A stretch of DNA of 52,636 bases, taken from a virus. Made by a program: the position numbers and the translations under genes. The stretch is taken from IMG/VR virus record IMGVR_UViG_3300029258_002308, positions 1 through 52,636 of that record, one strand, 5' to 3'. The notes under the pieces were generated by a model. That model worked only from the letters and a program-made list of their open reading frames with translations. It made no database searches and was not told where the DNA came from. Below, one piece after another: positions 1-52,636 of this stretch (its first letter is position 1; every line of letters begins with the position of its first letter).

Positions 1-40
1 TGGCAGGAGATCATATTGAATGAAGTGAGCGAATTAGAAA

Positions 41-682
41 ATGCAGGAACAGTTAGTGGGGCTGCACCGAGCAAGTGAAATGCTTGGTGTAACCAATGTT
101 ACACTTAGAAATTGGGATAAAGAAGGTAAGTTAAAAGCACTCAAGACACCAGGGGGGCATCGTCGTTGGCGGCTCTCCGATCTTCTTGCCTTTCAAGGCA
201 TCTCTCCCGAAGATACGTCCGAAAAAGAAGAACTTATTGCAATATACGGGCGTGTCTCTTCTCACGATCAAAAGCAGAAGGGCGATCTTGACCGCCAAGT
301 TGGTCGATTGGCTACCTATTGTGGTAAAAAGAAATACAAGGTGGCCCATACTCTTCAAGATGTTGGATCAGGTATGTCCGACAATCGCCCTCGGCTCAAT
401 CGGTTGTTCAAACTGGTTGAAGACCATTCTATCACCAAAGTTGTGGTAGAGCATAAGGATCGGCTCACACGCTTCAATTTTGGGGTTTATGAGCGTTTCT
501 TTAGTTCTCATGGTGTGATGATTGAGTGTACCGAAGACAAGCGAGAGAAGACCTACGAACAGGAACTTGTAGATGATATGATTTCGCTCATGTCTTCATT
601 CTCGGCTAAAATTTATGGTAAGAGAAGTGCAGAGAATAGAAGAAAGAAGAAAGAGGCGGCGATGAAGGAGACGGTGAAATGA
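41..682 (+). CDS. tnpA: IS607-family serine recombinase (TnpA)
   Basis: Site-specific serine recombinase that would move the IS607-type element through a phosphoserine intermediate. Residues 6-50 form a MerR-like helix-turn-helix (RASEMLGVTNVTLRNW, then GGHRRWR). Residues 66-200 form the resolvase catalytic domain: the nucleophile lies in AIYGRVSSHDQ, and DRLTRF is the typical arginine-bearing segment. The MerR-then-resolvase order and 213 aa length are diagnostic of IS607 transposases. The stop overlaps the next start (ATGA), so translation of the inserted endonuclease gene is probably coupled. The matching TnpB gene lies about 1.8 kb downstream. Confidence 0.93.
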   Translation: MQEQLVGLHRASEMLGVTNVTLRNWDKEGKLKALKTPGGHRRWRLSDLLAFQGISPEDTSEKEELIAIYGRVSSHDQKQKGDLDRQVGRLATYCGKKKYKVAHTLQDVGSGMSDNRPRLNRLFKLVEDHSITKVVVEHKDRLTRFNFGVYERFFSSHGVMIECTEDKREKTYEQELVDDMISLMSSFSAKIYGKRSAENRRKKKEAAMKETVK

Positions 683-2154
683 GCAAGTATATCGGACAAA
701 CATTCAATCACTTAACTATTCAGAGTATATGGGCAGATGATGGTAGGCAATTTTGTGATGTTCGATGTTCTTGTGGAAACACACGAATTACAAGGTTGGA
801 TCGAGTTGTAAATGGCCGGGTGATAAGTTGTGGTTGCAAAAGGAGAGTTCCAAACCACAATAGACCTTCACAGAAAAAATTGTTGAAAGATTACAATGAT
901 TTGAGGGTAATGGAGATCGCCAAGAAATACAATGTTTGTGTTGCAACTGTTTATAAATGGCTCAAATTCTATGAAATAAAACCTGTTAAAAATAGGGCAA
1001 TGACCAAAAAACCTAGTAAAGATGAATTACTTAAACTATGTGATGAGTTTGAATCGGCTGCTGCGATTGGAAGACATTGTGATGCTACCACTAGATCGGT
1101 ACTTAATTGGTGTAAGGATTACGGAATAGAATGTCCGAGGGGTTGGGATGAATACGAGAAACCCAACAGAGAAACATTGGCAGCAATGATGATGGGGGAA
1201 ACAAGAAAAACTGCCGCCCGAAAAAGGGGATGTAGTCCTTCACTGTTAGATCGTTGGATGAGGCAATATGATTTAAGTAAATTTGAATGTGAAAATGGGT
1301 ATAAATTAGAATTGCCCAATTCGTTTACCAACGTGCAATCAGATGTGGTAAAAGGTGTATTGTTGGGAGATGCCTCCATACCTTGGACAACAATAGAAAG
1401 GAATAGTGGTTTATCTTATGGTCAAGAATCTAGCAAAGAGGACTATGTTCGGCATATTGCCGATATAATGTATCCATTTGTAACTAGAAGTCCATTTACA
1501 TCTTGGCATTTGAAGCCAATTAGAAGAGATGGTAAAGTAATACACGACCATTGTGACCATAACAAAATTAGTGGAAGGTGTTATATCACAAGTCATGTTC
1601 ATCCTTTGTTTAGTGGCTTGCGGGGAAAATGGTATTTGCATCCAAGCAAAAAACGGTCAAAGAAAATAGTCCCGAGGGACTTGGTTCTTAACTGGCGTAT
1701 TTTTGCATATTGGATGTGCGACGATGGCTACAATAAAACTGGTTATGGAGAAAATTGGGAACGGGTAATTAAGTTGTATACCGATTCTTTTGGGTTTGAT
1801 GATGTTGAATTTTTAATCAGCAGGATGTCTATAGATTTAGGCGTAACATCGAAGATAAATCAACGAGAAGGCAAGCCCACAATTCGTATTAGCAGTGCTG
1901 ACTACGATCATGTAATTGACAATATAGCCCCATACATTACGGTGCCTAGTATGAAATATAAGATCGACAAATCTCCTAAAAAATACAGGTCTAAGTTATT
2001 GACTGATTCACAAATCAGTGAACTTAAAGAACAATGGAAGTGTGGCAAGTTGAAAAATAAACAGTCACAATTCGCCAGGAAATTTGGAGTTAGTCATACG
2101 GTAATCAATAAAACCATTAGATCATTTCAATACGAAGCCAAGAATGGAGAATAG
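679..2154 (+). CDS. LAGLIDADG-type homing endonuclease with zinc and HTH domains
   Basis: Probable DNA endonuclease of 491 aa. The N-terminal 55 residues carry a zinc-binding segment (CSCG at 30-33, SCGC at 50-53) common in phage homing and regulatory proteins. Residues 65-200 hold about three helix-turn-helix repeats (for example MEIAKKYNVCVATVYKWL). The catalytic core has two LAGLIDADG-like helices: VVKGVLLGDA (Asp231) and RIFAYWMCDDG (Asp349). The C-terminus has another HTH (QFARKFGVSHTVINK). It overlaps tnpA by 4 nt and the next gene by 11 nt, so it sits inside the IS607 operon rather than beside it. It looks more AT-rich than the replication genes, consistent with recent arrival. Confidence 0.85.
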   Translation: MSKYIGQTFNHLTIQSIWADDGRQFCDVRCSCGNTRITRLDRVVNGRVISCGCKRRVPNHNRPSQKKLLKDYNDLRVMEIAKKYNVCVATVYKWLKFYEIKPVKNRAMTKKPSKDELLKLCDEFESAAAIGRHCDATTRSVLNWCKDYGIECPRGWDEYEKPNRETLAAMMMGETRKTAARKRGCSPSLLDRWMRQYDLSKFECENGYKLELPNSFTNVQSDVVKGVLLGDASIPWTTIERNSGLSYGQESSKEDYVRHIADIMYPFVTRSPFTSWHLKPIRRDGKVIHDHCDHNKISGRCYITSHVHPLFSGLRGKWYLHPSKKRSKKIVPRDLVLNWRIFAYWMCDDGYNKTGYGENWERVIKLYTDSFGFDDVEFLISRMSIDLGVTSKINQREGKPTIRISSADYDHVIDNIAPYITVPSMKYKIDKSPKKYRSKLLTDSQISELKEQWKCGKLKNKQSQFARKFGVSHTVINKTIRSFQYEAKNGE

Positions 2155-2536
2155 AGTGTCAAAGATCATTTTACATACACCTAGATTTATGCGGGACGAT
2201 AAGACAACTACTGAGTTTGAGGCAACTGATATTATACAAATAAAATCGGTTGCAGGAGATGACGACAATGGCGGTTCACATTTCTGGGTAAGGGGTATAG
2301 CCGAGAGGCAGCATTGTTTAGAAAGTGCTAATGATCTGAGAAAATTAGTTGAAAAGCACAAAAATGATCCCCAACAACCGATCACGATGGGCGATGTTCA
2401 TATCGGTGATGTTTTTAAGCAAAATGGAATCAATTTCTTTTGGAAAGATGTCAGGTTCCAAACGGGACTCGCTGTAGGATTTTTCTTAGGGATCATCACA
2501 TCATACATTGCCGCATGGCTTTGGAGTATAAGTTGA
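2144..2536 (+). CDS. Small protein with C-terminal transmembrane helix
   Basis: Unrecognised 130-aa protein. The first 100 residues are soluble and charged. Residues about 106-127 form one hydrophobic helix (GLAVGFFLGIITSYIAAWLW), predicting a tail-anchored membrane protein with the N-terminus in the cytoplasm. It starts inside the end of the LAGLIDADG gene and overlaps the tnpB start by 22 nt, so it appears to be a passenger of the transposon operon. No known IS607 accessory function matches it. Confidence 0.7.
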   Translation: MENRVSKIILHTPRFMRDDKTTTEFEATDIIQIKSVAGDDDNGGSHFWVRGIAERQHCLESANDLRKLVEKHKNDPQQPITMGDVHIGDVFKQNGINFFWKDVRFQTGLAVGFFLGIITSYIAAWLWSIS

Positions 2537-3624
2537 AACTAAAACGCAGCAGTAGATGCACATTGAAGTTCGCTACCGAAGCGAAGAGACAGAAACTCAA
2601 GACCACACTTGAAGAGTACGGTCAAGTGGTTAATTTCTTCATTGATCGGTTCTGGGAAAATATCCCTAAGAAGGGCGAACTACTAAAAGACATTGTGAAT
2701 CTACCTGATACATGGTTATCTGCGAGGTTGAGAAAAGTTGCCGCCCGTGAAGCAATAGACCTAATTAAATCAGTCAAAGAATCAGGAAGAACCACCAAAC
2801 CCATCCATTCTGGTAAGAGGATGCATGTTTCTTCTACGATTGCAAACCTACAAATCCACAGGACTGCCAAAACCTTTGATTGCTGGCTTCATCTGGCCAG
2901 CATAGGCAACAACACCATCCTTGATCTACCCATCAAAGGACACAAACATATCAATCGTCTAATGGCACTTGGCAAACAACTCCAATCCTATATCATCACA
3001 GAAGATCAAGTTCAATTCTGTTTCCAAATCGAAACTGGCCCGAAGGCAGAACAGGGCGAGGTAGTTGGAATCGACACAGGAATCAACGCTCTGGCGACTT
3101 TGGATGACGGACAACAATACGGAATGCAAGTTAAAAAGCAGATAGAACGAATCAAAAACAAAGAACATGGAAGCAACAAGCAGAAAAAGGCACGGAGAGC
3201 GTTAAAGCAATATATGGACGAAACTGCCAAACGGGTAGTTTCTAACAAAAGGTTGGTCGTAGTAGAAGGTTTGAAGAAAATGAACCAGAAGACCAAACTC
3301 ACACGACGGGTGAGTAAAAATATCCGTCGTTCTCTCGGTGCATGGTGTTATCGTTACTGGTTAAACAGGATACAAATGGCGTGTGAAAATAACCGTGTTA
3401 GTTTCAGAACAGTCAATCCTGCATACACCAGTCAGCGATGCTATGCTTGTGGTCATACTGAGAGTGGGAATCGTAACAGAGAGATATTTAAGTGCAAGAG
3501 TTGTGGCTATACTTGTAATGCTGATGTTAATGCAGCCAAGAATATCTTGTTTCGGTTTCTAAGTGGACCTTACGGTGCCGCTTACAAACCTCCTGATCTT
3601 GACAAATCCCTTGTATTTTGCTAG
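2515..3624 (+). CDS. tnpB: TnpB, RNA-guided nuclease of IS607/IS605-type elements
   Basis: A 369-aa TnpB. All three RuvC acidic residues are visible: Asp187 in VVGIDTG, Glu251 in VVVEGLKK and Asp337 in CNADVNAAKN. The zinc ribbon uses Cys309/312 and Cys327/330 (CYACG, CKSCG). TnpB proteins are nucleases guided by an omega RNA derived from the 3' end of the element. The intact triad suggests an active enzyme. I chose ATG 2515 because an in-frame start at 2440 would add 25 residues unlike any TnpB N-terminus. The omega RNA should overlap the 3' end of the gene and extend past 3624. Confidence 0.95.
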   Translation: MALEYKLKLKRSSRCTLKFATEAKRQKLKTTLEEYGQVVNFFIDRFWENIPKKGELLKDIVNLPDTWLSARLRKVAAREAIDLIKSVKESGRTTKPIHSGKRMHVSSTIANLQIHRTAKTFDCWLHLASIGNNTILDLPIKGHKHINRLMALGKQLQSYIITEDQVQFCFQIETGPKAEQGEVVGIDTGINALATLDDGQQYGMQVKKQIERIKNKEHGSNKQKKARRALKQYMDETAKRVVSNKRLVVVEGLKKMNQKTKLTRRVSKNIRRSLGAWCYRYWLNRIQMACENNRVSFRTVNPAYTSQRCYACGHTESGNRNREIFKCKSCGYTCNADVNAAKNILFRFLSGPYGAAYKPPDLDKSLVFC

Positions 3625-3662
3625 GTTAGATTTTTATAGTTTTGGAGGAACGGTTTAAAAAA

Positions 3663-4004
3663 ATGCCGCTCAGTCGTAGGATCGCCAAAGCTCTTAGGAA
3701 AGGGCAATCTGTTGAGATCAATGGAGAAACTTTTATTTCTATCGAACATATGACCAACAAGCATCAAAAGTCAGCAATTGATCGATATGGTTTGACAAGT
3801 CTGAAACCAGGGGATAGGGTGGTTTGTTATGTTTATGGATTATTGGAAGTTCGTACTATCGAAAAAATCAAACAAAGAAATTATCTTCCTCGATTCAAGG
3901 TGGGAAAGAAAACCGATGATATAAAAGAATGGGTTGGGAAAACCAAAATTCTTGGTGTAAAAGAAGAATCGTTCATGGAAGAACTAGTTTACGAATTGGA
4001 ATAA
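3663..4004 (+). CDS. Hypothetical protein
   Basis: About 113 aa, unrecognised. It is basic at the N-terminus (SRRIAKALRKGQ) and has beta-rich segments with a GDRVVCYVYG turn. ATG 3663 is preferred. An in-frame TTG at 3642 lies within the TTGGAGG that supplies the ribosome binding site, although the gap from GGAGG to ATG is rather long (14 nt). The gene ends two bases before the HNH gene and may belong to the same insertion cluster. Confidence 0.6.
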   Translation: MPLSRRIAKALRKGQSVEINGETFISIEHMTNKHQKSAIDRYGLTSLKPGDRVVCYVYGLLEVRTIEKIKQRNYLPRFKVGKKTDDIKEWVGKTKILGVKEESFMEELVYELE

Positions 4005-4006
4005 CA

Positions 4007-4600
4007 ATGATAACACTTTCGGAAAGGTTAATTCGACTTGGTTATAGTGATTATCAATCTTATTTGCGTTCTGAGCATTGGAGTCAAAAAAAGCGGCAAT
4101 ATCTTAGCTCTAATTCTCCCAAATATTGCTTAATTTGTGGCAATAGCCAATATGATTTACATCATCTCACATACGAACGGTTAGGTAATGAATTGATTTC
4201 AGATTTATTTCCTCTTTGCAGGAGGTGTCATAGGATATTACATGATTACACAAAAAAGAAGCGTTGTGGCTTAAACAATATGCAGCACATATTAGAGGAA
4301 GCTTTTGGACTTGATAGAGAGGCAGCGGCTTCTAAAATGATAACGGTCGGTAAAGAAGTGTCTAAAGAGAAAAAAATACGATTAGTTCATCCGTTTTGTG
4401 GTAATTGTGGGAAAAAATATTCAGTATTTGTTGAGATATTTGAAATTGAATTAGCTTGGTTTAAGCAACGAAAAGAGAAATGGCTTTGTAAGAAATGTCG
4501 GCCTTGTAAAATTAGTACAGGGCGAAGAGCTAAAATAAAGTACAAGAAAACAAAAAAAACACTCGCCCGCCTTGAGGCGAGTGTTTGGCAAGAAGAATAA
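4007..4600 (+). CDS. HNH homing-type endonuclease with two zinc sites
   Basis: A 197-aa HNH nuclease. The core reads CLIC (41-44), DLHHLTYERLGNE (His52/His53, Asn61), then CRRCH (71-75), the usual Cys-flanked beta-beta-alpha metal fold. A second CxxC pair cluster (CGNCGKK and CKKCRPC) lies near the C-terminus and could bind DNA or zinc. ATG 4007 is chosen because an upstream in-frame start would run far into the preceding gene. The base composition is AT-rich. Free-standing HNH genes of this kind are typical mobile endonucleases of large phages. Confidence 0.85.
   Translation: MITLSERLIRLGYSDYQSYLRSEHWSQKKRQYLSSNSPKYCLICGNSQYDLHHLTYERLGNELISDLFPLCRRCHRILHDYTKKKRCGLNNMQHILEEAFGLDREAAASKMITVGKEVSKEKKIRLVHPFCGNCGKKYSVFVEIFEIELAWFKQRKEKWLCKKCRPCKISTGRRAKIKYKKTKKTLARLEASVWQEE
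4557..4586. repeat. Perfect 11-bp inverted repeat at the 3' end of the HNH gene
   Basis: AAACACTCGCC (4557-4567) and GGCGAGTGTTT (4576-4586) are perfect complements with an 8-nt loop. The hairpin is inside coding sequence, 14 nt before the stop. An A-tract (4552-4559) precedes the left arm and becomes a U-tract on the minus strand, so it resembles a minus-strand terminator more than a plus-strand one. Confidence 0.7.
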
Positions 4601-6174: not shown

Positions 6175-6744
6175 GTGCGAAAAGCAATCACTGAACAATT
6201 CCCGGTAGGTGAAGAGGAATATCTAGAACTTGATAAGAAATTCGGAAATCTGGCAAACTACGCAGGATGGCAACTTATCAAGAAAAACAACAGGAACAAT
6301 CACACCGACGATCACCAAGATGTGGCACAAGAATTGAGGATAGCACTTATTCAGGCAGGTTCTTACTACAAGCGACAGGTTTATATCGAAAAATGTTTAT
6401 CGCTTTGTTTTGAGTATGTCTATGATCCCTTTGTTCGCCAAATCGTGGAGCAACTTCAATTTTTATGGAAAAACAAGACTCGACATGGAGCTAATAAACA
6501 GAAGTATGGTCCACATCAAGAACGGCTCTTGGAAAAGATCGTTCGATCCTACGTGCCTGCCCATAAGAGGCCATCTAAGAAGGCCCATTTAGTCGTGGAC
6601 TCCAAATTTGCGACCTACTGCAAGGCTATTACTTGGAATCGACAGAAGGCCTTGGGCAAAAAAATCACCCGAGAGAAATCTATTCGTGCCAATTCAGTTT
6701 CATTATCTGAATATGATTACCTGGGTCCCGACAATCGACCTTAG
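6175..6744 (+). CDS. Sigma-70-region-2-like phage protein
   Basis: A 189-aa protein starting at GTG 6175 behind AAGGAG (6164-6169). The segment DDHQDVAQELRIALIQAGS (about 45-63) resembles sigma region 2 or ECF helices (the DLVQEGxIALI pattern). No clear region 4 HTH is visible, and the C-terminus is basic. It may be a phage transcription factor or a diverged sigma-like protein. It sits between polymerase and helicase genes, so a replication accessory role is an alternative. Confidence 0.4.
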   Translation: MRKAITEQFPVGEEEYLELDKKFGNLANYAGWQLIKKNNRNNHTDDHQDVAQELRIALIQAGSYYKRQVYIEKCLSLCFEYVYDPFVRQIVEQLQFLWKNKTRHGANKQKYGPHQERLLEKIVRSYVPAHKRPSKKAHLVVDSKFATYCKAITWNRQKALGKKITREKSIRANSVSLSEYDYLGPDNRP

Positions 6745-6762
6745 TAGATACTACATATCTAT

Positions 6763-7164
6763 ATGACTAAGATCGATCAAAAGACATTTTACGAAAAATT
6801 CGAAAAGAAACGAACCAAAAAGGATGGCAAGTACACTCCCACATTCGATCTTAATGTCCTTTTAACTTTGGCTTGGCATTTCCGACCTAAACACTTTTTG
6901 GAATTTGGAGTACAGGAAGGCACAACAGCCGGAATCCTTCTAGAACTATGTCCTTGGATTGAGAAATACACAGGTATCGATGTACCTCCTAATTTTAAAA
7001 CCAAGTGGAAAGCCCAACAAAGTGAAGTCCCTAAAAAAGCTGGAGGATTGGTTGATGATCCTCGTTTCAATGTTATCGTATTGGAGAAAGGAACAGCGGA
7101 ACTTGAGGTCAACAAAATGAATTTTGTTGACTGCTGCTTCTTTGTTGATCTAGACAAAATCTAG
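6763..7164 (+). CDS. Short class I SAM methyltransferase-like protein
   Basis: 133 aa. Motif I of the Rossmann methyltransferase fold is present (FLEFGVQEGTTAGILLE, about 46-62), then strand 2 with an acidic end (YTGIDVP). The sequence stops right after strand 4 (DCCFFVDLD), where typical family members continue for 60-100 residues. It therefore looks C-terminally truncated or minimal. No matching continuation is seen in the other frames of the 44-nt gap. Activity is doubtful. Confidence 0.55.
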   Translation: MTKIDQKTFYEKFEKKRTKKDGKYTPTFDLNVLLTLAWHFRPKHFLEFGVQEGTTAGILLELCPWIEKYTGIDVPPNFKTKWKAQQSEVPKKAGGLVDDPRFNVIVLEKGTAELEVNKMNFVDCCFFVDLDKI

Positions 7165-7208
7165 GATTTCTGCTAAATTATTTTCTGAGAAAGAGCGATA
7201 GGTAGAAT

Positions 7209-8822
7209 ATGACAGATTTTATCGACCCCGACGACGATTTGACGGAAGAAGAGCTAGAGCAGCTTGAAAGTCTAACCGATCCCGATGCCGAAGAGGATTC
7301 CGAGTTCAAGTGGGACGAGGAATTTCAACGGTACATTCTTGCCATGCTTGTCTCGGACAAGCATTTTTTAGTTCAGAGTCTACCTCTGGTTCAACCTAAA
7401 TACTTTACTGATGATGTTCATAAACTGATTTGTAAACTTCTATTCGGGTATTTTGAGAAATACAAAGTTCTCGCCAAAAAGCCGTGGATCGTTCAGGAAG
7501 TCAAAGACCACATTGCGGAAAAGAACGACGAAATCCAACTACACTATCTTACCGAACTTAACAAGGTTTATGAATATTATACTCCCGGTGTTGAATCAAG
7601 AGACTATCTTCTCGATAAGATTGTCCACTTCGCCAAGATGCAGGCAATTAAGGTTTCATTCAACAAGTGTCTCACCGTTATTAAGAAGGACCCTGAAAAC
7701 GATGATACCTGGATGAAAATCGGAGACATACTACGTGATGCTTTGCTTGTAGACAAAAACTTTGATCCCGGCCTGGATTATTTTCAATCATATGAGGAGC
7801 GATATGAGCAGCTTAAGGAGGATGAAGCCCTAGAGGTTTTTACAACCGGATTCAAGAGTATAGATAACAATCTTTTATCGGGCGGGCCCACGCGAGGCGA
7901 GGTTTATGCGGTCATTGCTCTTTCGGGAGTTGGGAAATCGCTGAACCTCGTTACCGCCGCATTGAAAAACGTGCTGTTGGGCAAAAAGGTTCTTTACATT
8001 TCGCTGGAAATGGATGAGGGGAAAATTGCCGAGCGTTTTGATGCACAATTGGCGGCGGTTGATATTAACAAATTGCTAGATCACAAAGAACTTATCAAAC
8101 AGGCTTTTGATGAGCAACTAGATGAACAAGAAGATCCCCGAACACTTATCATCAAACAATTTGCTCCCGGAGTGATGGATGTCAATACGCTTCGAGCATA
8201 TCTTCAACAGTTGTATTTGATTGACTTCCGGCCTGATATGGTCATCGTAGACTACATCGGTGAAATGAAGGATTATCCCGGCATTCCCACTTGGCAATCT
8301 CGATACCGAATTATCCGAGATCTTAGACGACTTGCAAAAGAAGAAGAAATCTGCATCTTGACTGCCATGCAAGCCAACAAGAGTGCCCGTGAGGCCCAAG
8401 AATTAACTGATCGATGGGGAAATCTTCAAACGGGTGTTATTGATGATGATAATCTCGCGGATGCCCACGGACAAGTTAAACCTCTTGATGGTTGGTGGTC
8501 TATCAATCAAACTCATTTCGAAAAAAAAGCCGGAATTGCAAGAGTATTTTTTGGAAAAGCAAGACATGGGAAAAGTCGTTTTATCTTTTGGATTGAATAC
8601 AACGAGAAAACTTTGGCAATGACTGAAATTTCTGAAAAAAAGTTCAGCGAAAAAATAAAAAAAGAGCAGGCGGATTCAGTTACCAGAATGCAGGATTTAC
8701 CACAAAAACAATATCCTGATGGGAAAAAAGGAACCAAGGTTAGCCAAATGATAGGTAATAACTCTACTGTAAATAAAGAACCGACAATCCCCAAATCACA
8801 TGAAGGAACAAACAATGAGTGA
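7209..8822 (+). CDS. Replicative DNA helicase, DnaB/T4 gp41 type
   Basis: A 537-aa hexameric helicase expected to unwind the fork 5'-3'. The N-terminal part (about 1-200) is acidic then helical, as in DnaB N-domains. The RecA-like core starts with FTTGFKSIDNNLLSGG. Walker A is ALSGVGKS (about 237-244), an acidic LEMDEGKIAERF segment follows, and Walker B is MVIVDYIGEM. A long polar Lys-rich tail (last 70 residues) may contact a primase or loader. It overlaps the start of the UvsY-like gene by 8 nt. Confidence 0.92.
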   Translation: MTDFIDPDDDLTEEELEQLESLTDPDAEEDSEFKWDEEFQRYILAMLVSDKHFLVQSLPLVQPKYFTDDVHKLICKLLFGYFEKYKVLAKKPWIVQEVKDHIAEKNDEIQLHYLTELNKVYEYYTPGVESRDYLLDKIVHFAKMQAIKVSFNKCLTVIKKDPENDDTWMKIGDILRDALLVDKNFDPGLDYFQSYEERYEQLKEDEALEVFTTGFKSIDNNLLSGGPTRGEVYAVIALSGVGKSLNLVTAALKNVLLGKKVLYISLEMDEGKIAERFDAQLAAVDINKLLDHKELIKQAFDEQLDEQEDPRTLIIKQFAPGVMDVNTLRAYLQQLYLIDFRPDMVIVDYIGEMKDYPGIPTWQSRYRIIRDLRRLAKEEEICILTAMQANKSAREAQELTDRWGNLQTGVIDDDNLADAHGQVKPLDGWWSINQTHFEKKAGIARVFFGKARHGKSRFIFWIEYNEKTLAMTEISEKKFSEKIKKEQADSVTRMQDLPQKQYPDGKKGTKVSQMIGNNSTVNKEPTIPKSHEGTNNE

Positions 8823-30814: not shown

Positions 30815-32353
30815 ATGTTTGTCATCGGTGTCTCAGGCCAACTTAGACAAGGCAAAGATATAGTAGCGGATTATTTAAGCTTACAACTAGACGGCCATAG
30901 AACTGCTTTTGCTGCGGCGGTAAAAGAGGTCTTCTGCCAAGCATTCTCCGTGGATTTAAATTTCGTTGAAGAGTGGAAAGTAAAAGATGAGCCGCCGCCC
31001 GGATTCGATGCGAATATCCGCACGGGCCTTCAAATGATAGGCGACGGATTCAGAAAACTCAAAAGTACCATTTGGTTGGATAGGTGCTTCGAAGATTTTG
31101 ATTTCCTCGATTGCCCCATCATCATAAGTGATACGCGATACGTTAATGAACTAAAAAAAGTGCATGAAGTCGGCGGAACAAACATTCTTGTTTACCGCCC
31201 TGGCTTCTTCAATAATGATCCTAACGGATCAGAGGCTCAAATTAAGCCGTTCGTTCAATACTTTCTAGATACGGGCGGTTTTGAAGGAATTGTTCATAAG
31301 GGATATCTGACCAATCCCCCTGAATTGGTTGATATTTTTATCAGGAATGATGGCACCCTGGAAGATTTGTATTCCAAAATTGATGAAATTGTGATTCCTT
31401 ATTTGGAGGAAAAATATGATATTTCACATCATTGTGGAAAGTGTGCAAAAAAAATTACGGGGCTATTTTGCTCAAAATCGTGTTCAGTCAAGGCAAGACC
31501 GAGAAAAGATTCTAGACAAACTTTCATTTGCCAAATCTGTCATAAAGAATTTTTATCATATGGACAACGTGTAGTATGTGGCCAAAAATGCAATGCAATT
31601 TTAATGGCACAAACAAGAATTGGTGAAAATAATCCCGCATTCAAACAGGATAAACCAATCGCCATTTGTAAAAATTGCGGCTATCAGTTTGAATATAGTA
31701 TGTGTGGCAGAAAAGATCCCCCACAATATTGCACTAAGGAATGTTGGGATAAATTTCAAAAAGGTAAAAATAAAGCTTTAGATGGACCTGCGATTTACGG
31801 AAATCCATATCCATCCGATTTTCATAAGATTAAAAAATCAGTCAGAAAAAGAGACGAGTATTCTTGTTGTTTGTGTGGATACAAAAGTCGTTCGATTTCT
31901 GTCCATCATATTGATTACAATAAAAGCAATAATGAATTGTGGAATTTAATTTCTATGTGCAAAAGATGTCATAATTTGACAAATTTTAATCGAGGATTCT
32001 GGCAGTTTTTGCTTACCGGCTTAATTTCTGGATCAAAATTAGTTAAGAAAGGATGGGGAGCAGAGATTCATTTGGTAAATCACGACAAGTATTGTCTTAA
32101 ATATCTAATTTTCTTTGAAGGCAAACGCTTTTCATATCATTTTCATGAAGTCAAGCAAGAATTATGGCATTGTGCATTTGGTCAATTCGATTTGTTATTG
32201 GATGGCGTAAAAACAACTTTTATTGCCGGACAAAAATTAGAATTATTGCCGAACCAAAAACATGAATTGCGGGCAAGAAAAAATTCTGCCTTAATAGAGG
32301 TTTCAACTACAGATTACCCTGAAGATTCTATCCGAATATGGAAAGGAGATTAA
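30815..32353 (+). CDS. Fusion: dNMP kinase-like + HNH endonuclease + cupin
   Basis: 512 aa in one frame. Residues 1-200: P-loop kinase like T4 gp1 (GVSGQLRQGKD, then IRTGLQMIGDGFR and IIISDTRYVNEL), a deoxynucleoside monophosphate kinase pattern. Residues about 205-400: several CxxC pairs, then an HNH core (CCLCG 351-355, SVHHIDYNKSNN with His364/365, Asn377, CKRCH 382-386). Residues about 414-512: a cupin with the full motif G-(5)-HFH-(4)-E-(6)-G (GKRFSYHFHEVKQE). The HNH segment is visibly more AT-rich, so it appears to have been inserted between or within two phage genes. Confidence 0.85.
   Translation: MFVIGVSGQLRQGKDIVADYLSLQLDGHRTAFAAAVKEVFCQAFSVDLNFVEEWKVKDEPPPGFDANIRTGLQMIGDGFRKLKSTIWLDRCFEDFDFLDCPIIISDTRYVNELKKVHEVGGTNILVYRPGFFNNDPNGSEAQIKPFVQYFLDTGGFEGIVHKGYLTNPPELVDIFIRNDGTLEDLYSKIDEIVIPYLEEKYDISHHCGKCAKKITGLFCSKSCSVKARPRKDSRQTFICQICHKEFLSYGQRVVCGQKCNAILMAQTRIGENNPAFKQDKPIAICKNCGYQFEYSMCGRKDPPQYCTKECWDKFQKGKNKALDGPAIYGNPYPSDFHKIKKSVRKRDEYSCCLCGYKSRSISVHHIDYNKSNNELWNLISMCKRCHNLTNFNRGFWQFLLTGLISGSKLVKKGWGAEIHLVNHDKYCLKYLIFFEGKRFSYHFHEVKQELWHCAFGQFDLLLDGVKTTFIAGQKLELLPNQKHELRARKNSALIEVSTTDYPEDSIRIWKGD

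Positions 32354-43565: not shown

Positions 43566-52636
<9,071 letters not shown>

Follow-up and report, generated by a model that had tools for sequence, protein, structure and literature searches.

A LAGLIDADG endonuclease gene in the probable cargo slot of a phage-associated IS607-family transposon

Transposons of the IS607 family are usually described as minimal elements made of two genes. The subject of this report is an IS607-type element at the left edge of a 52,636-base linear virus record (IMG/VR record IMGVR_UViG_3300029258_002308, hereafter the window, i.e., the whole stretch of DNA that was analyzed), where the transposon genes tnpA and tnpB are separated by a gene for a LAGLIDADG homing endonuclease and a gene for a small, putative membrane protein. 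We regard it as highly likely that all four genes belong to one transposon of a phage-associated IS607 subfamily, whose core would consist of a left end (LE), a gene of ~65 amino acids (aa), tnpA, a cargo slot, tnpB overlapped by an omega RNA, and a right end (RE), and that the slot is filled here by the endonuclease and membrane protein genes.

The closest described systems are other IS607 elements, such as ISXfa1 and ISFba1, which (PMC10711439, PMC11061315, PMC6188088) share with this locus a TnpA combining a helix-turn-helix (HTH) with a serine recombinase, a downstream tnpB, an RE just past tnpB, and an RNA structure at the 3' end of tnpB. IS607 elements are further marked by an LE and an RE with a GG-containing core and by the lack of a terminal inverted repeat; such a core recurs at the ends of relatives, and the window shows the RE. 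In contrast to them, the subfamily adds the ~65-aa gene upstream of tnpA and variable cargo between tnpA and tnpB, occurs mainly in large phages, and has an RNA without an Rfam match. Among composite elements, the nearest precedents are the IStrons (PMC4227781) and, in giant viruses, mariner elements that carry genes for an endonuclease and a methyltransferase (PMC3627910). Like the present element, IStrons are chimeras of an IS605/IS607-type element and another selfish element, but what they add is a ribozyme at one end, whereas here protein genes are lodged between tnpA and tnpB; as Rfam searches gave no group I intron or any other match, identity with an IStron was rejected. The Fanzor-bearing mariner elements are likewise virus-borne transposons that join a transposase with an endonuclease, a methyltransferase, or Fanzor; unlike the present one, they reside in eukaryotic viruses, use a DDE transposase, and have no tnpA-tnpB slot.

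Transporter insertion sequences (tIS, PMC9330008) carry passenger genes inside the ends of an insertion sequence, and the IS607 subfamily behaves like them: passenger genes lie within the element ends in relatives that have both ends, and in the window by homology and the RE only. They are described in general terms, without IS607, whereas the vehicle here encodes an RNA-guided nuclease and keeps its slot at one fixed internal place. Among the open-access papers searched, none combines IS607, TnpB, and LAGLIDADG, or IS607 with a jumbo phage, an absence that carries little weight given this scope; a tnpA-tnpB cargo slot is likewise not described in the passages found in PMC3627910, PMC9956272, PMC11061315, PMC10711439, and PMC11870625.

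A slot of changing content within one pair of ends

The comparative evidence comes from metagenomic contigs, whose loci are labeled here with L numbers. Relatives of TnpA were gathered by patterns in viral contigs, then with an alignment (A1), and then in bacterial and archaeal genome contigs; when the viral contigs were scanned again with another alignment, most of the contigs returned were the same. Relatives found by TnpA gave 60 distinct subfamily TnpAs with a tnpB in reach, to be compared with 52 from the ordinary IS607 clade. The gap between tnpA and tnpB measures at least 100 nt in 36 of the 60 subfamily members, extending up to 5,340 nt, and 24 are without cargo, whereas none of the 52 ordinary elements attains 100 nt (largest gap, 96 nt), nor does any of the seven viral members of the ordinary clade. 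The Fisher p-value of 1e-13 for this contrast is optimistic, as the rows are related; the TnpA tree requires at least 16 changes between presence and absence of cargo, and these changes, together with the viral-only control, answer part of the relatedness problem.

The boundaries of the slot can be read from five independent sets of near-identical elements (L003/L004, L010/L012, L061/L064, L040/L043/L052, and L068/L069) that differ in their cargo or cargo ends. In these sets, the left stretch of homology ends at the tnpA stop codon or up to ~110 nt before it, and the right one begins no more than 4 nt from the start of tnpB. L003 and L004, for instance, are 92-93% identical in both blocks and differ in cargo, the former having an open reading frame (ORF) for a 663-aa LAGLIDADG protein plus one of 146 aa, the latter a single ORF of 109 aa. 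L068 and L069 share both the element and its helicase cargo but have them inserted at different sites, which indicates that element and cargo moved together.

Regarding the contents, homing-type genes are represented by LAGLIDADG_2 in the window, LAGLIDADG_3 in L003, and a GIY-YIG-like protein in L052 (phrog_314, homing endonuclease, a weak match at 1e-4). DNA methyltransferases are found in L018, L044, and L046/L048/L075, and also in L071, where no tnpB was found, and ResIII-type helicases in L068, L069, L072, and L203. Other slots hold a methionine aminopeptidase-type M24 peptidase (L054), an MzaB-like ATPase (L087), DUF4238 (L030), YopX (L040), and many small proteins without an assignment. 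A 5.3-kb slot (L032:6678-12018) contains a set resembling restriction-modification (R-M), namely a ResIII helicase, an Eco57I-like methylase, a 246-aa ORF, and an N6-methylase; this gap was measured from a single TnpB that is truncated by the end of the locus, and the outer RE was not seen. The slot of L070 (L070:5983-10425) holds a complete second IS607 element of the ordinary clade (tnpA 6632-7237, tnpB 7234-8409), i.e., nested transposons. The initial annotation had called a homing endonuclease between tnpA and tnpB unusual and suggested a parasite of the transposon or a co-operating module; its setting within one element stands, while the notion of a one-off endonuclease parasite gives way to a slot that takes many unrelated genes.

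As a separate observation, an IS607 element related to L044/L046 has turned into a methyltransferase island (L074:4757-11141), in which a C5 methyltransferase gene upstream of tnpA and a LAGLIDADG ORF interrupting tnpA are followed by N6/N4, Dam, D12, and second C5 methyltransferase genes. It also contains a zinc-finger fragment like the N-terminus of the window endonuclease, and of tnpB only a 49-bp remnant was found. With its LAGLIDADG ORF inside tnpA and no intact tnpB found, it was not counted as a slot endonuclease.

To draw the outer limits of the element, related elements lying in unrelated flanks were compared in pairs, which reveals two homologous blocks: the left one comprises the left end, the small ORF, and tnpA, and the right one consists of tnpB plus the right end. 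Each block has a sharp, conserved outer border, reading GGGT(T/A)..AAC(A/T)G at the left end and ..ACGGT at the right end. Beyond these borders the sequences are unrelated, and fifteen elements share the same ends in fifteen different flanks. Both LE and RE are defined in relatives, and ACGGT lies no more than 36 nt past the tnpB stop codon in all 23 relatives inspected; the window has AACGGT at 3649-3654, which puts its RE at ~3654. The TnpA of the window is 49-63% identical to those of large viral contigs and 70% identical to that of L017, a contig that holds the best TnpB relative (68%) together with one of the best TnpA relatives and thereby speaks against two separate elements.

A further hallmark of the phage IS607 subfamily is the ~65-aa gene (52-90 aa) just upstream of tnpA, present in 67 of 77 phage-clade loci by profile hits and, by eye, also in L007, L010, and L018. 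It was not found beside ordinary IS607 TnpAs, the two exceptions at the level of loci being ones that contain a second, ordinary tnpA. Its AlphaFold model is a confident beta-beta-beta-alpha fold (pLDDT 89), and searches of Pfam, PHROG, and the PDB gave no match (best E in the PDB, 1.3); a role as cofactor or regulator of TnpA would be a guess.

The window element, its RNA, and its surroundings

The features of the element and of its immediate borders are collected in Table 1. The phage nature of the record is apparent from genes for a DnaB-like helicase, a UvsX-like recombinase, and collagen-like tail fibres; the nearest match of its family-A polymerase (32%) is from a 595-kb uncultured phage.

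Table 1. Positions of the element's parts and neighbors, given in window coordinates unless a locus is named
Feature	Position	Strand	Basis
Tail of the ~65-aa upstream gene (WQEIILNEVSELENAGTVSGAAPSK, then stop)	1..78	+	Resembles the C-terminus of relatives' upstream ORFs (profile hits, alignment A3); short match, judged by position and sequence
tnpA, IS607-type serine transposase, 213 aa, N-terminal MerR-like HTH and C-terminal resolvase domain	41..682	+	Pfam, PHROG, relatives
Cargo gene 1, I-SceI-like LAGLIDADG homing endonuclease, 491 aa	679..2154	+	PF03161, PDB matches, motifs
Cargo gene 2, 130 aa, with a single transmembrane helix predicted at the C-terminus	2144..2536	+	Hydrophobicity; without family hit
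tnpB, RNA-guided nuclease	2533..3624	+	Start TTG 2533 by homology; RuvC D-E-D and 4-Cys zinc ribbon intact
Covarying hairpin within the 3' part of the tnpB coding region, belonging to the predicted omega RNA scaffold	3562..3582	+	Alignment covariation
Right element end (RE), ending in TATAGTTTTGGAGGAACGGT; common GGT at 3652-3654	3625..3654	+	ACGGT in relatives, pairwise element ends
Expected guide of the omega RNA (~20 nt at the start of the right flank)	3655..3674	+	By analogy with IS607 TnpB biology (PMC10711439, PMC11061315)
First phage gene right of the element, 113 aa from ATG 3663	3663..4004	+	Without Pfam/PHROG family hit
Upstream gene, example in a relative	L002:5816-5989		Seen across L002-L090

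The TnpA matches Resolvase (PF00239, 3.7e-21), MerR-like HTH (PF00376, 6.1e-9), and the transposase family phrog_6620 (5.8e-53), and is thus a serine recombinase with an N-terminal MerR-like HTH, as is characteristic of IS607. The tnpB gene, an accessory feature of the family, lies downstream on the same strand, not adjacent to tnpA, the two cargo genes (1.85 kb) being between them, and the four genes overlap head to tail, with ATGA joining tnpA to the LAGLIDADG gene and TTGA joining the stop of cargo gene 2 to the start of tnpB. The initial annotation had described precisely such an overlapping string of a serine recombinase, a LAGLIDADG nuclease, a small membrane protein, and TnpB, and had placed the LAGLIDADG gene within an IS607 tnpA-tnpB unit; all four ORFs were recovered in place and in frame, and the protein families and the one-element architecture bear the assignment out.

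The 491-aa protein belongs to LAGLIDADG_2 (PF03161, 3.9e-20), with sequence matches to I-SceI (PDB 1r7m, 1.2e-9) and to 6x1j (1.9e-13), and both of its LAGLIDADG motifs retain their acidic residues (VLLGDAS near aa 226 and WMCDDG near aa 343). It has in common with the I-SceI-like enzymes (PF03161; PDB 1r7m, 6x1j) a single-chain core with two motifs; unlike them, it carries a zinc-finger-like segment and HTH repeats ahead of the core, and it sits in a transposon slot, not in an intron. The 130-aa protein has a single hydrophobic helix at its C-terminus (aa 108-130, Kyte-Doolittle value 1.85) and no family match in Pfam or PHROG. Scans of viral contigs with single-sequence patterns returned no close relatives of the endonuclease, TnpB, or the DNA polymerase, no near DNA matches were found among phages, and the sole match in a tblastn search of phages with the endonuclease was to its N-terminal segment.

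The TnpB matches PF07282 (1.2e-17, a Cas12f1-like domain), and its RuvC residues D187, E251, and D337 and zinc-ribbon cysteines C309, C312, C327, and C330 are invariant in the 19 sequences of alignment A4. Its structure model (pLDDT 84) finds Cas12f and TnpB in Foldseek with values up to 3e-18, including AsCas12f, the IS607 ISFba1 TnpB (8iaz), ISDra2-type TnpB, and the TnpB-omegaRNA complex 8h1j. Nearly all TnpB relatives start at the residue aligned with TTG 2533, and this alignment, together with a TTGA overlap as in L004 and L008, sets the start of tnpB at 2533, not at 2440 or 2515.

For the RNA, the last 151 nt before the right end were aligned between the window and its relatives, with shuffles and slid partners as controls. 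In the hairpin of Table 1, 99.1% of the cells are paired and 20 cells are changed on both sides; none of 500 shuffles reached the observed paired cells or covariation, and sliding the partner by 1-3 columns left a pairing of at most 49% and at most 3 double-change cells. Such a predicted structure would be expected of an omega RNA that overlaps tnpB. Folding the window 3' end as a single sequence gives no significant result by itself (z -1.3), and the case rests on covariation; an Rfam search of the element RNA matched no family. An omega RNA had been proposed at about 3500-3750, and its signature does occur within the 3' end of tnpB, with a scaffold that ends at ~3654 and is therefore shorter than suggested. 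In the same region (window 3504-3654 and relatives; A5 columns 92-97 and 170-175), the hairpin loop contains an invariant TACGGT that resembles the AACGGT with which the right end terminates, a similarity that may reflect pairing or a repeat bound by TnpA.

Three other features of the record deserve mention. An HNH/DUF968-like endonuclease gene (4007-4600) is located two genes to the right of the element, and outside it by the position of the RE. A 512-aa ORF at 30815-32353 combines a deoxynucleotide monophosphate kinase-like N-terminus, a middle HNH region (274-394), and a cupin-like C-terminus (407-512), and may be either a fusion or an in-frame HNH insertion. Finally, a pair of giant minus-strand ORFs for collagen-like tail fibres (1112 and 1253 aa) spans 43566-51878, where GC jumps to ~0.6 and AT skew shifts to -0.5.

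Proposed mechanism and competing explanations

In IS607 work, TnpA is described as acting by crossover at a core that contains GG, via a circular intermediate, and TnpB as cutting unoccupied sites, which retains or spreads the element (PMC10711439, PMC11061315, PMC6188088); PMC11870625 describes TnpB cutting as a gene drive of insertion sequences in plasmids. By analogy, a TnpA crossover at the short GG(T)-containing core found at both ends would excise and insert the whole unit, through a circular intermediate, and TnpB with its omega RNA would cut the unoccupied copies of the site, thus favoring retention or copying of the element along with whatever its slot contains. Cargo may be swapped by recombination between co-infecting phages, with selection for intact tnpA and tnpB setting the breakpoints at their ends; because any exchange that spares both genes breaks at gene ends, cargo turnover needs no special recombination. 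The endonuclease would ride as a passenger and would probably also home, its cut falling at a long, fixed site in relatives that lack an endonuclease.

Several points weigh against this explanation. The left end of the window element is off the contig, which begins inside the conserved upstream gene, and the unit is bounded there by homology; L017, the closest element, likewise lacks a left end, and its TnpA is missing the first ~29 aa. No empty site appeared in two exact-pattern scans with the joined flanks of L046 and L064, made in one collection in which absence proves little, and the ends, for which the initial annotation had proposed an empty-site comparison, come instead from the element pairs described above. 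Moreover, the endonuclease and membrane protein of the window are without a close relative in the collections searched, so any mobility of theirs in the slot is presumed, and the activities of TnpA, TnpB, and the endonuclease, the mobility of the element, and the endonuclease target are inferred.

The alternative that survives best, although we consider it unlikely, is that the LAGLIDADG gene homes autonomously as a parasite, having inserted itself where tnpA meets tnpB and spreading from one IS607 copy to another, with the other slot genes being unrelated accidents. Homing-type genes from different families do occur in slots at least three times (LAGLIDADG_2 in the window, LAGLIDADG_3 in L003, and GIY-YIG-like in L052), and the tnpA of L074 is itself interrupted by a LAGLIDADG gene. 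However, most slot contents are not endonucleases but methyltransferases, helicases, the aminopeptidase, the ATPase, and small unassigned proteins, the slot is as precise for these as for endonucleases, and no pair of alleles with and without the window endonuclease was found in the collections searched.

Alternatively, the transposon might have recruited the endonuclease as a functional component that assists TnpB in cutting unoccupied sites, giving a double-nuclease mobility module. The operon-like ATGA overlap with tnpA, the intact catalytic motifs, and the recurrence of nuclease-type cargo would suit such a role, which is nonetheless improbable given the sister elements that lack an endonuclease or carry quite different cargo, the 24 cargo-free members among 60, and the fixed long site of a LAGLIDADG enzyme, which would not fit the varied target flanks. 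Sequence accommodates a parasite as well as a co-operating module, and the description it supports is that of a passenger, one that may home on its own.

Very improbable is the view of tnpA and tnpB as remnants of two elements with the LAGLIDADG gene merely between them, separate elements being what the initial annotation had named as its own refutation; the position of the window's left end off the contig speaks for this view. In relatives, however, a single LE and a single RE bracket the whole unit, and two elements with their own ends were rejected on these grounds; L017 holds relatives of both genes, and the window slot has no LE-like match and RE-like hexamers only at 670 and 1652, within genes and without flanking RE sequence (short-motif LE/RE scans are noisy and served solely as counts against shuffles). 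Least credible of all is an artefact of metagenome assembly or binning. The origin of all the evidence in assembled metagenomic viral contigs would permit it, but the same element and cargo recur across samples in long identical contigs (L046/L048/L075; L041/L042/L045; L010/L011; L019/L020), the breakpoints repeat at gene ends in independent pairs, and the genes overlap in frame.

Implications for phages and for TnpB

The single IS607-family transposon with a cargo slot leads to a broader proposal, which we offer tentatively and with more doubt than confidence: a phage-adapted IS607 lineage could serve as a general cargo vehicle, in which the gene drive of TnpB and its omega RNA acts between co-infecting phages and one slot is reloaded with genes for counter-defence or competition, such as methyltransferases, helicases, R-M-like sets, and homing endonucleases. 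The version with the endonuclease would then possess two independent homing systems, one guided by RNA and the other by protein.

The near-identical elements with different cargo constitute a ready comparative set, and the tnpA-tnpB interval is a suggested place to look for new phage accessory genes. An element with its own RNA-guided DNA cutter appears to shuttle cargo between phages; if this is true, TnpB would gain a concrete role, driving cargo besides the element, and phages would gain a small, self-selecting route for trading accessory genes.

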